Source of the DNA: a virus
IMG/VR virus record: IMGVR_UViG_3300037586_002213
Coordinates: 1 to 36,870 of that record
Direction: 5' to 3' (one strand)
Length of the DNA: 36,870 bases
Part shown: positions 15,407 through 27,751 of the stretch, piece by piece
How positions within the stretch are numbered: the stretch's first letter is position 1
Layout: every line of letters begins with the position of its first letter
Translations under genes and position numbers: made by a program
The notes under the pieces: model-generated
Seen by the model: the letters and a program-made list of their open reading frames with translations, nothing else
Told to the model about the DNA's origin: nothing
The model's database searches: none

Positions 15407-15706
15407 ATGCCGAAAAGAAAAAAAGACACAACGGTAAAAGACACCAAAGCCGCCGACAAGATTCTCGAACAAAACGAAGAGAAGATTGCCGCAGAACAAA
15501 AGGCGAAAGATAATGACGCGAAAGCCAAAGCGAGGAAAGATAATCCAGGGCGCGGAGATGCGATTGTCCTAGATTCTGAGGGAAGGTATGAGCGAACATA
15601 CTCAGCCGAACACAACGACCCTAAAGGGTTGAAGGGAGGCAAGGATTATAAGGAGAAGGCAGAGGGATACGCAAGAAAGATCGGAGGATCAGTCCGTAAG
15701 GGATAG
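15407..15706 (+). CDS. Lys/Glu-rich small protein of the head module
   Basis: This 99-residue protein is dominated by Lys, Ala, Asp and Glu (MPKRKKDTTVKDTKAADKIL, then EQNEEKIAAEQKAKDNDAK). The second half is glycine-rich (DPKGLKGGKDYKEKAEGYA). The low-complexity, highly charged composition suggests a disordered or coiled-coil protein, perhaps DNA-associated in the head. The start has the A/T-rich leader TTTAATAATATG. It is the last gene before the structured element at 15723. Confidence 0.6.
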   Translation: MPKRKKDTTVKDTKAADKILEQNEEKIAAEQKAKDNDAKAKARKDNPGRGDAIVLDSEGRYERTYSAEHNDPKGLKGGKDYKEKAEGYARKIGGSVRKG

Positions 15707-15722
15707 ATCATCGACAATTTAT

Positions 15723-15836
15723 AAAATTCTACACTTGGAGGTGCTCTCATCATGTCCATGAATCGTTAGGTTTTGTAGAATTTTCCTATGTAAGTATTTA
15801 TGGACATGGCGACAGCACTTTCAGGGTGCTGTTTTT
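15723..15836 (+). ncRNA. Structured RNA or leader element with interleaved helices, mini-ORF and terminator
   Basis: Two inverted repeats interleave. AAAATTCTACA (15723-15733) pairs with TGTAGAATTTT (15774-15784), 11 bp, perfect. CATGTCCAT (15751-15759) pairs with ATGGACATG (15800-15808), 9 bp, perfect, extendable to 13 bp with one wobble. This is pseudoknot topology, or two competing folds. The first loop holds GGAGGTG (15737-15743), a perfect Shine-Dalgarno site, 8 nt before a 5-codon ORF, ATG TCC ATG AAT CGT TAG (15752-15769), whose start lies inside the second helix. ACAGCAC (15812-15818) and GTGCTGT (15826-15832) with a T-run form a terminator. Its AGCAC could instead pair with GTGCT (15741-15745) in the Shine-Dalgarno region. 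The scaffold and capsid genes follow. I recognise no known RNA family. Confidence 0.65.
15812..15836 (+). terminator. Intrinsic terminator before the scaffold gene
   Basis: ACAGCAC, 7-nt loop, GTGCTGT gives a 7-bp stem followed by TTTTT (15832-15836). A small separate hairpin, GAGCC-TAT-GGCTC (15854-15866), lies downstream, 12 nt before the scaffold ATG, and would be at the front of any message that starts or reads through here. Confidence 0.75.
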
Positions 15837-15878
15837 AATACACAAAAAATAACGAGCCTATGGCTCAAAAACAAAATT

Positions 15879-17820: not shown

Positions 17821-17841
17821 GGGGTAGGAATTGCCTACCCC
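17821..17841 (+). other. Perfect GC-rich hairpin after the capsid gene
   Basis: GGGGTAGG, loop AATTG, CCTACCCC is a perfect 8-bp stem just after the capsid stop. It lacks a T-tract, so it is more likely an RNA-stability or processing hairpin protecting the capsid message than a full terminator. Confidence 0.6.
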
Positions 17842-17855
17842 TGCATCTCAAAAAA

Positions 17856-18527
17856 ATGAGCAAACCAAAAATAATCTTTATATCGGCACTTGCAGTATTC
17901 CTCGTAGTTGGAGGAGTGCTACGAGCAAGTGGACAAGCTGGCGGTGGAGTTGAAAAGCTCTTTGAACACGTTGAGAACTACTACGAAGGTAGCGGCATAG
18001 GCTCTGAAGAGGGTCTTGTCGGTGGCGGAACTGGTACGACTCACAGACAGAAAGAATCCTTTGTTCAAGGACTCTTCGTTGGAACGACTCGACAGCTAAA
18101 CATCGACAACACTGGAGCATTTGTAGGTCAACTTACAGTAGACAGACTACGGTTTGCTGGGGGCAATACTGCTCTTGCAACCCAAACGGGCGCAAGCAGT
18201 ACACTCGCCGCTTCGGAGGCTTGTGGACTGAGTATCGCAACCTGGACACCTACGGATGGAGGAACAGCAATAACGCTTCCTAGCTACGCGGCTATGCAAG
18301 CAGATTGTATTCCCGCAGTTGGAGATCAGAGGATTCTCTTTCTTCACAACGCAGGACTTGCTTCAACCACGATTACTACTTGGACTGCTGGAGCATCTTC
18401 AACAGTCGATCATGTAAGCTCCTCCACTCTATCTGGTCAAAATCTAGCTCGATTAACATTCCTCAATACAACCGCAACAAACGGTTCGGATATGTTAAGA
18501 GTCCTAATTGAGACTGGACAGTTCTAA
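17856..18527 (+). CDS. Membrane-anchored virion-module protein with beta-rich C-terminus
   Basis: This 223-residue protein has an N-terminal hydrophobic segment (residues 5-21, IIFISALAVFLVVGGV), a Gly-rich stretch (GGGVEKLF, GGGTGTTHR) and a Ser/Thr/Ala-rich beta region with repeats of ASST and TTIT. It follows the capsid gene directly, where a decoration or fibre protein is expected, but the membrane segment is unusual for a virion protein. Two cysteines occur (EACGLS, QADCIP). No family is recognised. The start follows AATG-type A/T-rich sequence with no Shine-Dalgarno site. It may be exported or tethered to the host membrane. Confidence 0.6.
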   Translation: MSKPKIIFISALAVFLVVGGVLRASGQAGGGVEKLFEHVENYYEGSGIGSEEGLVGGGTGTTHRQKESFVQGLFVGTTRQLNIDNTGAFVGQLTVDRLRFAGGNTALATQTGASSTLAASEACGLSIATWTPTDGGTAITLPSYAAMQADCIPAVGDQRILFLHNAGLASTTITTWTAGASSTVDHVSSSTLSGQNLARLTFLNTTATNGSDMLRVLIETGQF

Positions 18528-25603: not shown

Positions 25604-27751
25604 ATGGCAAGCAGACTATCACAAATACAGGCTCGCAGAGAAAAGTCTGATGTGGTAACGGCTTCTCCAACCAGTACAGGAAGTAGGTTCAATCAAATAT
25701 TAGAGAGAAGACAACAACCGACACAAGAACTTCCAGTAGAAGGGGAACCAACCGCACCAACAGGAAAAGAGCAGGGCATCTTTGGCTCTTTTGTGTCGGG
25801 CGTACGAGTTGGAATACCACAGGCGGCGTCTGCCATAAAAAGCACTGGTGCGTTGTTTTTAACTACTCAGCAACGCAAGAATAAGGAGGCAAGAGAAAGA
25901 CGTGAAGCTCGCGGACTGCCACTTACTCCTTTAATGGAGAGGCAGAAAAAGGCTGAGTTGACCAAGGAAGAAGGTGGTTTCGGTGGCAAGACTCCACAGG
26001 AAATATCTAAACAGCTTCAGGTAAGCTCACATGAAAGCCTCGCAAAGGCAGATGAGATTATTCTTAAAAACTTTCCAATAGACGACCAGAGAAAGTTTAC
26101 CGAAAAAATACGCGATCCAAATTGGATTGCACAAGGAATAGGAATGAACGCCCCAAATCTTCTTGCCAGCCTTGGTATGGGTGCAGTTGCTACTGCTGTT
26201 ACAGGAGGAAACGTCCCCGCAGGACTTGTGGCGGCATTTGGAACGACATTTACACTTGAGGCTGGAGCAGTCTACAGCGAAGCTCTTTCTCTTGGGGCAG
26301 ATGAGCAAACTGCGGCTAATGCAGCGTTCTTGACTGGGACCGCAAATGGAATGCTCGACATTATTCCTATTGGTAACTTTCTTACAAAATCTCCCGTAGG
26401 AAGTGCCTTGAGGAGAAATATTCTTTCAAAAGTATTAAAAGATATTCTTCTTCAGGGAGGGCTTGAGGCAGGTACGGAATCTATGCAGGAGATTGTCGCA
26501 AATGCAATCGGTAAAACCTATGACGAGAATAGAGAGTTGTTTCAGGGAGTTGATGAGGCTGCCTTCTTTGGTGGAATCCTTGGACTAGGTACTTCTCTTC
26601 CAGGTGCTACGGGTGATGTTGTAAGTGACGCAAGAAGGCGGTCCGAAAAGAGGGCAGCAGACGCAAAAATAGCCGAAGAGGACGCTGATATTGATACAGA
26701 TGCTGAAGCAGACCTACAGAAAAACATTAAATTCCATAAGGAGCAGGGAGGGTTTTCAGTGGGAACCGAAACAGAGAGCGCACCGCTTCGAGACATAAAT
26801 ACAGCGATTGAAACTACGGAAGGAAAAGCTGTTGCGGATAGAGACATTCAACGAGCAATAGAGGGGGGAGATATTAAAGTTGGGGAGGACGGGAAGATTA
26901 CTCTCTTCAGGGCTGGCGAGGTTGGAGATGCAAACGTCCTTACGAGCACAACATTTGATGAGAGCGTCGCAAAGCAATTTCAGGAAGAGGCGAAGTTGCG
27001 CGGTCAGGATATCCCATTGCAGAAGTTTTCTGTTTCCCCAGAGGACGTATCAGTGTTTATCGGTGGTGCTGAGTCAGAGGTTTTGATACGAGGAAGCGTA
27101 GTAAAGCCAACTCCAACACCAACTCAGGCAGAAGTAAAACCCAAGAAGCAAGTCGTCACCGTCCCAAGATCACAGCTTCCTATAAAAGACGCGAAAGCAA
27201 AGAAGGGGGTTAGTAGGTTGGAGGCGAGGATTAAAGGAATCGTGAACCTGGATAATGTTGAGAAGGCAAAGATAGAGGCGGAGGAGAAGGGTCTCGATAT
27301 TACTATCTTCGACAAAATCAGCAAGCCAGACCAGATAAGGAAGGCATCGGAATATGTGCATGGCGCATCGGATCAGGACATCATAGACATTATAAAGGGG
27401 GACAAGGAACCACCAAGGGGAATCTTAGGAAACTCAGTTCTTATCGCGGCAATAGAAAAGGCTAAACTAGATAAGAATACTGGTCTTGCGGCAAAAATTG
27501 GCTCCCTCAAGGCAACAAGGCTTGGTCAGGAGATTGGTATTTTAAGTGAGATCGACAAGCTTGATGCCGTAAGCGCGATAGAAACTATCGTCCGAGCAAG
27601 AGCCGAGCGTGTAAAAAAGAGTCTGAAGGGCGGGGAGAGCATCCGAACACAGACTGCTTCTACGAAAACTAGCATTGATAAGGCGGAGAAGGCTGGTCGT
27701 CTCAAAATCGCCGAAGCAAAAAAAATATTAAACGAGATCGTCTGCGACTAA
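25604..27751 (+). CDS. Large ejection-type (polyvalent-like) protein with ADP-ribosyltransferase-like domain
   Basis: This 715-residue protein has a charged, disordered N-terminus, a hydrophobic region with membrane-active glycine-rich segments (residues about 182-245, LASLGMGAVATAVTGG, and 320-334, AAFFGGILGLGTSLP), an R-S-E type ADP-ribosyltransferase-like domain at about 420-500, and a long helical C-terminus. The domain has ITLFRAGE (R436), LTSTTFDESVAKQF (S448) and GGAESEVLIRG (E490, E492), the order and spacing of NAD-binding arginine, S-T motif and E-x-E catalytic glutamates. Such domains occur in phage MuF and polyvalent proteins and in T4 Alt, which enter the host with the DNA and modify host proteins. 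Carriage inside the virion and injection are inferred. The stop is 1 nt before the next gene. Confidence 0.65.
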   Translation: MASRLSQIQARREKSDVVTASPTSTGSRFNQILERRQQPTQELPVEGEPTAPTGKEQGIFGSFVSGVRVGIPQAASAIKSTGALFLTTQQRKNKEARERREARGLPLTPLMERQKKAELTKEEGGFGGKTPQEISKQLQVSSHESLAKADEIILKNFPIDDQRKFTEKIRDPNWIAQGIGMNAPNLLASLGMGAVATAVTGGNVPAGLVAAFGTTFTLEAGAVYSEALSLGADEQTAANAAFLTGTANGMLDIIPIGNFLTKSPVGSALRRNILSKVLKDILLQGGLEAGTESMQEIVANAIGKTYDENRELFQGVDEAAFFGGILGLGTSLPGATGDVVSDARRRSEKRAADAKIAEEDADIDTDAEADLQKNIKFHKEQGGFSVGTETESAPLRDINTAIETTEGKAVADRDIQRAIEGGDIKVGEDGKITLFRAGEVGDANVLTSTTFDESVAKQFQEEAKLRGQDIPLQKFSVSPEDVSVFIGGAESEVLIRGSVVKPTPTPTQAEVKPKKQVVTVPRSQLPIKDAKAKKGVSRLEARIKGIVNLDNVEKAKIEAEEKGLDITIFDKISKPDQIRKASEYVHGASDQDIIDIIKGDKEPPRGILGNSVLIAAIEKAKLDKNTGLAAKIGSLKATRLGQEIGILSEIDKLDAVSAIETIVRARAERVKKSLKGGESIRTQTASTKTSIDKAEKAGRLKIAEAKKILNEIVCD

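Follow-up and report, generated by a model that had tools for sequence, protein, structure and literature searches.

The window, by which we mean the whole 36,870-base viral record analysed here, contains an RNA element just ahead of the scaffold and capsid genes that is probably a cis-acting, pseudoknotted transcription attenuator setting transcription into these genes. Elements of the same anatomy are carried by about 40 non-redundant viral loci related via the capsid protein, and across these relatives the fold is kept with almost no letters conserved. The best-supported assignment is a terminator/antiterminator attenuator with an unusual architecture, and no known family matches it. Its carriers are a large group of little-known phages. 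If the attenuator reading is true, the element is an undescribed regulatory RNA, apparently common among phages, that is positioned where transcription enters the genes for head assembly.

Anatomy of the element

The window carries terminase, capsid and tail-type genes, and the element is placed between a 99-aa ORF (15407-15706) and a putative scaffold gene (from 15879); the features are collected in Table 1. The first-pass annotation had described two perfect inverted repeats interleaving at 15723-15836. Both exist and interleave, and the observation is confirmed in a stronger form than was stated there. Arm A abuts the 5' base of the long hairpin. The second repeat is longer than had been described, spanning 33 nt at 76% complementarity (15736-15768 with 15791-15823, core CATGTCCAT/ATGGACATG) and extending across the terminator's 5' arm. 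The stretch 15734-15825 folds as a single long hairpin of 33 pairs with A' alone in its apical loop, a point that the annotation missed. The predicted RNA fold has an energy of -43.5 kcal/mol (z = -5.86), and 0 of 200 shuffles were as stable. That such a repeat geometry is improbable by chance, as had been claimed, is borne out by dinucleotide shuffles of 28 regions, 0 of 2,800 of which reached a detector score of at least 56; in the same 28 regions the first geometry detector gave 19 real scores of at least 60. This detector forbade bulges and so missed the window element and several members; a bulge-tolerant version recovers the window.

Table 1. Coordinates of the element and of the neighboring features in the window
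Feature	Position	Strand	Remarks
Small ORF, 99 aa	15407..15706	+	Stop codon 16 nt before arm A
Conserved motif CTTTnACAATTTA (window: CATCGACAATTTA), boxA-like, identity putative	15709..15721	+	Sequence conserved
Arm A, AAAATTCTACA	15723..15733	+	Perfect complement of A', 11-bp repeat
Long hairpin, 5' strand (proposed antiterminator)	15734..15771	+	Holds the lineage-specific SD and mini-ORF
SD-like GGAGGTG	15737..15743	+	Not conserved in relatives
5-codon ORF, ATG TCC ATG AAT CGT TAG	15752..15769	+	Not conserved
Arm A', TGTAGAATTTT	15774..15784	+	Makes up most of the long hairpin's apical loop
Long hairpin, 3' strand	15785..15825	+	Toward its 3' end it supplies the terminator's 5' arm and loop
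Intrinsic terminator, ACAGCAC-TTTCAGG-GTGCTGT and T-run	15812..15836	+	5' arm common to the long hairpin
Short GC hairpin (GAGCC-TAT-GGCTC), separated from the scaffold start by an A-rich spacer	15853..15865	+	
Putative scaffold gene, 220 aa	15879..16541	+	Assigned from position and from 36-42% identity to the equivalently placed proteins of close relatives
Major capsid protein, 405 aa	16589..17806	+	phrog_267, E = 2.6e-18

Conservation among relatives

Capsid relatives were collected from viral contigs and species genomes, their capsid identities spanning roughly 75% to 30%. The element lies nearly always just 5' of the scaffold-capsid genes, mostly 750-900 nt before the capsid start. The members have in common the 5' arm A and a long hairpin; about 3 nt plus A', which is exactly complementary to A, make up the apical loop of this hairpin. 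An intrinsic terminator is present in 31 of 40 elements, and its 5' arm usually doubles as the 3' strand of the hairpin. The same layout can be read in unrelated letters in locus L007: AAACATCAC-AC-[TCTGGTGGCGTCCATTTTGCCGCCGAGG]-TTA-{GTGATGTTT}-[CCTCGGCGGTAGAATAGGCGTCATCAGA]-CGCCGATTTTT.

The compensatory changes that the first-pass annotation had named as a check were looked for in these relatives, and massive covariation was found. In the 40 elements tabulated the arms measure 7-14 nt (mean 10.2), A and A' form Watson-Crick pairs at 99.3% of 407 positions, and the start of A is separated from the start of A' by 39-56 nt in 38 elements. Of the 7 core positions of A, 6.98 pair with the A' of the same element and 2.12 with the A' of other members; there are 34 distinct core 7-mers, with all four Watson-Crick pairs at every core position, and these counts are not fully independent because the 40 elements are phylogenetically related. 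In one clade that can be aligned, 89.4% of cells pair, compared to 42-49% with slid partners, and the covariation score was exceeded in 0 of 500 shuffles. The selected form is the + strand RNA, since in the long helix G-U outnumbers A-C by 96 to 36 when G-T and A-C are scored in a strand-neutral manner (p = 1.7e-7).

Our improved detector returned 52 forward hits in 1.74 Mb, clustering at the scaffold-proximal position, against 17 scattered hits on the reverse strand, one of which is a reversed copy of the window element in L029; because of this background, isolated hits away from a scaffold gene were not trusted. An exact pattern scan matched near-identical copies of the window only, and a BLAST search of the element against phage records gave nothing useful. 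Annotated phages supplied two distant capsid relatives only, with no convincing element 5' of the capsid gene in MW202577. No such element was found before the gene in L003, L012 and other relatives, and L010 has kept the long hairpin and lost A'. Ordinary homology tools miss the element because its shape alone is conserved, and conservation of this kind implies that similar elements may be common. In one distant phage (L014:1798-1900) a similar element lies between terminase-like and portal-like ORFs, so the element may not be limited to scaffold genes; a search for relatives of the L014 portal recovered L014 itself only and no second such case.

Two competing folds

The SD region had been noted as able to pair with the terminator arm, and competition of the 5' strand for this arm is seen in the relatives as well: in 20 of 22 evaluated elements the long hairpin takes up most or all of the terminator's 5' arm, and so offers an alternative structure that sequesters it. 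Terminator and long hairpin are mutually exclusive, and the two states that we model are the pseudoknot plus terminator on the one hand and the full-length antiterminator hairpin on the other. The energy of the terminator state minus that of the readthrough state is -6.6 +/- 4.6 kcal/mol (sd) before any pseudoknot penalty, which the state energies omit, and the near-zero linkers from A' to the hairpin lie beyond the energy calculation. Typical pseudoknot penalties amount to several kcal/mol and would offset the -6.6 kcal/mol lead, so that the two states would be of comparable energy. When the A:A' term is left out, the full hairpin is computed to be favoured in most members. The computed probability of A:A' pairing has a mean of 0.87 when A' has just emerged, with values above 0.5 in 37 of 40 elements, and a mean of 0.18 after 48 further nt under the nested model. 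In most members the fully zipped hairpin, about 25-35 bp long, is separated from A by 0-5 nt; with a linker this short and a helix this long, A should on geometric grounds be unable to reach A' in cis.

Proposed attenuator mechanism

Arm A would leave the RNA polymerase first, followed by the long hairpin's 5' strand and after it by A', and the computed folds predict that A pairs with A' immediately on emergence. When the 3' strand emerges, two outcomes would compete. If A:A' holds, the upper half of the long hairpin alone would form, as a pseudoknot, and the lower 3' strand, left free, would pair with the next stretch to make the terminator and stop transcription at about 15836. If A:A' is blocked or opened, the hairpin would zip fully, taking up the 5' arm of the terminator, and readthrough would follow. 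We infer that this switch works in vivo and that the occupancy of A is its input. Candidate occupants are a factor, of phage or host origin, on the conserved CTTTnACAAT motif beside A, and alternatively the speed of the RNA polymerase together with trailing ribosomes. As a counterpoint, a terminator directly before the most-needed proteins is an odd arrangement, unless it is strongly regulated.

The first-pass annotation had suggested an attenuator or riboswitch-like control that senses ribosomes. The part that finds support is the pseudoknot-plus-terminator RNA, with its attenuator-like anatomy and covariation; the sensing of ribosomes through the SD and the 5-codon ORF is not supported, these features being confined to the window lineage.

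Alternative explanations

An intrinsic terminator with its T-run stands ahead of the genes in the window and in 31 of 40 elements, where at least four T occur at the terminator position (a tally that includes L046, scored in the two-state evaluation). The nine remaining elements keep A:A' and the long hairpin and have no TTTT run at the expected place; several of them belong to one clade with a promoter-like sequence just 5'. These nine imply that termination is perhaps not the sole function and that a role independent of termination is possible, such as mRNA protection, processing or pairing between molecules besides attenuation. They are also what favours reading the element as a structured 5' leader that acts after transcription, capping either the mRNA for scaffold and capsid or an RNA of about 115 nt left by termination, where it would give protection from nucleases or set processing or translation, with the terminator being secondary. 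The extended -10-like sequence just 5' of the element in several members, from which the RNA would start near A, and the second small hairpin before the scaffold start fit such a leader, which we nevertheless consider unlikely because the T-run in 31 of 40 elements, the terminator arm within a hairpin strand and the near-balanced states would all be superfluous for mere protection.

The element could instead be an attenuator whose structure is chosen by ribosomes, either those ending the preceding gene or those translating the mini-ORF, a reading that we hold to be improbable. It draws on the upstream stop codon, which lies 6-54 nt before arm A in 28 members (mostly 8-21 and usually about 17, with nearly all at 6-29), and on the perfect SD and mini-ORF of the window. 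The annotation was right that the genome is poor in SD sites, SD-like sites being found before 4 of the 39 gene starts checked, and that the intergenic GGAGGTG is the only one: it has eight copies on the + strand, and the seven besides this one fall within ORFs when set against the ORF list. However, a perfect SD in the element's 5' portion with a 5-codon ORF after it occurs in the window lineage only (the identical L002 and L029); the SD letters are at the same time the 5' strand of the long hairpin, where relatives read TTGGGAGTACC, CTTGGAAGGGTT, CTCTGGTGGCG and so on. The few other coincidences of an SD and a start among relatives are in different places and different frames. No conserved short ORF overlapping the structure, as in a leader-peptide attenuator, was found among the relatives, and the model based on the SD and mini-ORF was rejected for lack of conservation there. 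The suggestion of a small RNA that binds ribosomes finds no support for the same reason. A ribosome at a stop codon covers an estimated 10 nt or so beyond it; one halted at the preceding stop would, by this estimate, not reach A in most members, and the space between stop and A is occupied by the conserved CTTTnACAAT motif.

It is similarly doubtful that the A:A' pairing joins separate molecules instead of parts of a single one. The fully zipped hairpin exposes a free 5' arm and a loop that is perfectly complementary to it, so that copies could join head to tail. If this is true, the RNA could assemble into rings or chains, or the nascent transcript that comes next could be switched by a copy that has terminated, giving a concentration-sensing RNA tied to capsid production.

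The CTTTnACAAT motif directly 5' of A is conserved, and its match to an rRNA-boxA-like string averages 9.3 of 15 positions compared to 7.6 of 15 after other stop codons (p = 1e-7). It is similar to the boxA consensus of gamma-proteobacteria, GYTCTTTAANA (PMC5725501), from which the boxA of the host may differ. In one clade the motif partly overlaps or adjoins an extended -10-like promoter sequence; such sequences lie just 5' of arm A in L054, L073, L128, L143, L144 and L145 and suggest a transcript start near A in these loci. A distant capsid relative has, in the corresponding gap (L015:2630-2750), three boxA-like GTTCTTTRA-like strings within and beside strong hairpins. The motif and the RNA might together form a processive antitermination site of the nut or put type, which loads factors onto the RNA polymerase and makes it ignore local and later terminators. 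Phages do employ such RNA elements, as in HK022 put (PMC9378689). We think it quite unlikely here, because put RNAs share their sequence and act on distant terminators, while in our element the helix sequences drift freely, the terminator makes use of the structure's own strands, and the motif is possibly part of a promoter instead.

A role at the DNA level, as palindromes for packaging, recombination or protein binding, is very improbable and was rejected on the G-U asymmetry: near-perfect palindromes do adjoin the head genes and one pair of loci (L145/L146) has a template-switch-like palindrome correction, but the asymmetry between G-U and A-C, like the T-run, is a signature of RNA from one specific strand, and the arm sequences vary where a DNA-binding site would be conserved.

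Comparison with known systems

A search of Rfam 15 with the window and 12 related loci found no family at the gathering threshold, and a relaxed search gave sub-threshold hits only, to unrelated families. A limited literature search of open-licence papers found no description of the element. Its design, a terminator switch in which the loop of a hairpin pairs with a 5' arm, is unmatched in Rfam and in the literature searched.

The element shares with the terminator/antiterminator leader attenuators (trp/his type and riboswitch expression platforms) two exclusive folds that have the 5' arm of the terminator in common, as well as a position ahead of the regulated genes; a protein-controlled example is the Bacillus rplJL leader (PMC4538822). 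It differs from them in that the competitor is a pseudoknot between a 5' arm and the antiterminator's own apical loop, in that neither a ligand pocket nor a leader peptide nor the sequence of a protein site is conserved, and in having phage structural genes downstream. The preQ1-II and SAM-II riboswitches have the same H-type pseudoknot topology linked to an expression platform; in contrast to these, the element lacks conserved ligand-binding nucleotides and its stems vary freely. With the HK022 putRNA (PMC9378689) and lambda nut/boxA it has in common that it is a phage cis-acting RNA tied to the control of termination, with a possible boxA-like motif. However, put consists of two stem-loops with conserved contacts to the RNA polymerase and no terminator in its own strands; the element has no such conserved residues, and in place of a sequence-similar pair of stem-loops it shows a different anatomy with no sequence conservation. 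GOLLD and ROOL (PMC12286853) are likewise phage-encoded structured RNAs of unknown function, which oligomerise through kissing loops; they are hundreds of nucleotides long, usually lie near tRNA genes and have Rfam families, whereas the element is about 115 nt long, is associated with the scaffold gene and has no Rfam hit.

Other observations

Between loci L145 and L146 there are 5 differences in 6,113 positions, and four of these are clustered within 12 nt of one hairpin strand (1683-1694); the L146 arm is thereby a perfect complement, which makes a perfect palindrome. The pattern resembles the renewal of hairpins by template switching, which has been described (PMC8794818), or may be an assembly artefact. 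Template switching could explain a fast turnover of sequence with the pairing preserved.

GC-rich hairpins with 3-nt loops, comparable to the one before the scaffold start in the window, precede the scaffold start in many relatives, among them L009, L011, L041, L043, L045 and L068. Their loops often contain AAT or TAT and an A-rich spacer lies 3' of them; this hairpin is possibly a start-site element in SD-poor genomes. Another hairpin, GGGTAGG-AATTG-CCTACCC, lies at 17822-17840 between the capsid gene and the ORF at 17856, and has no T-run. Further downstream, a 715-aa ORF (25604-27751) gives a weak PHROG match (6e-5) to a region of virion RNA polymerase-type giant proteins.
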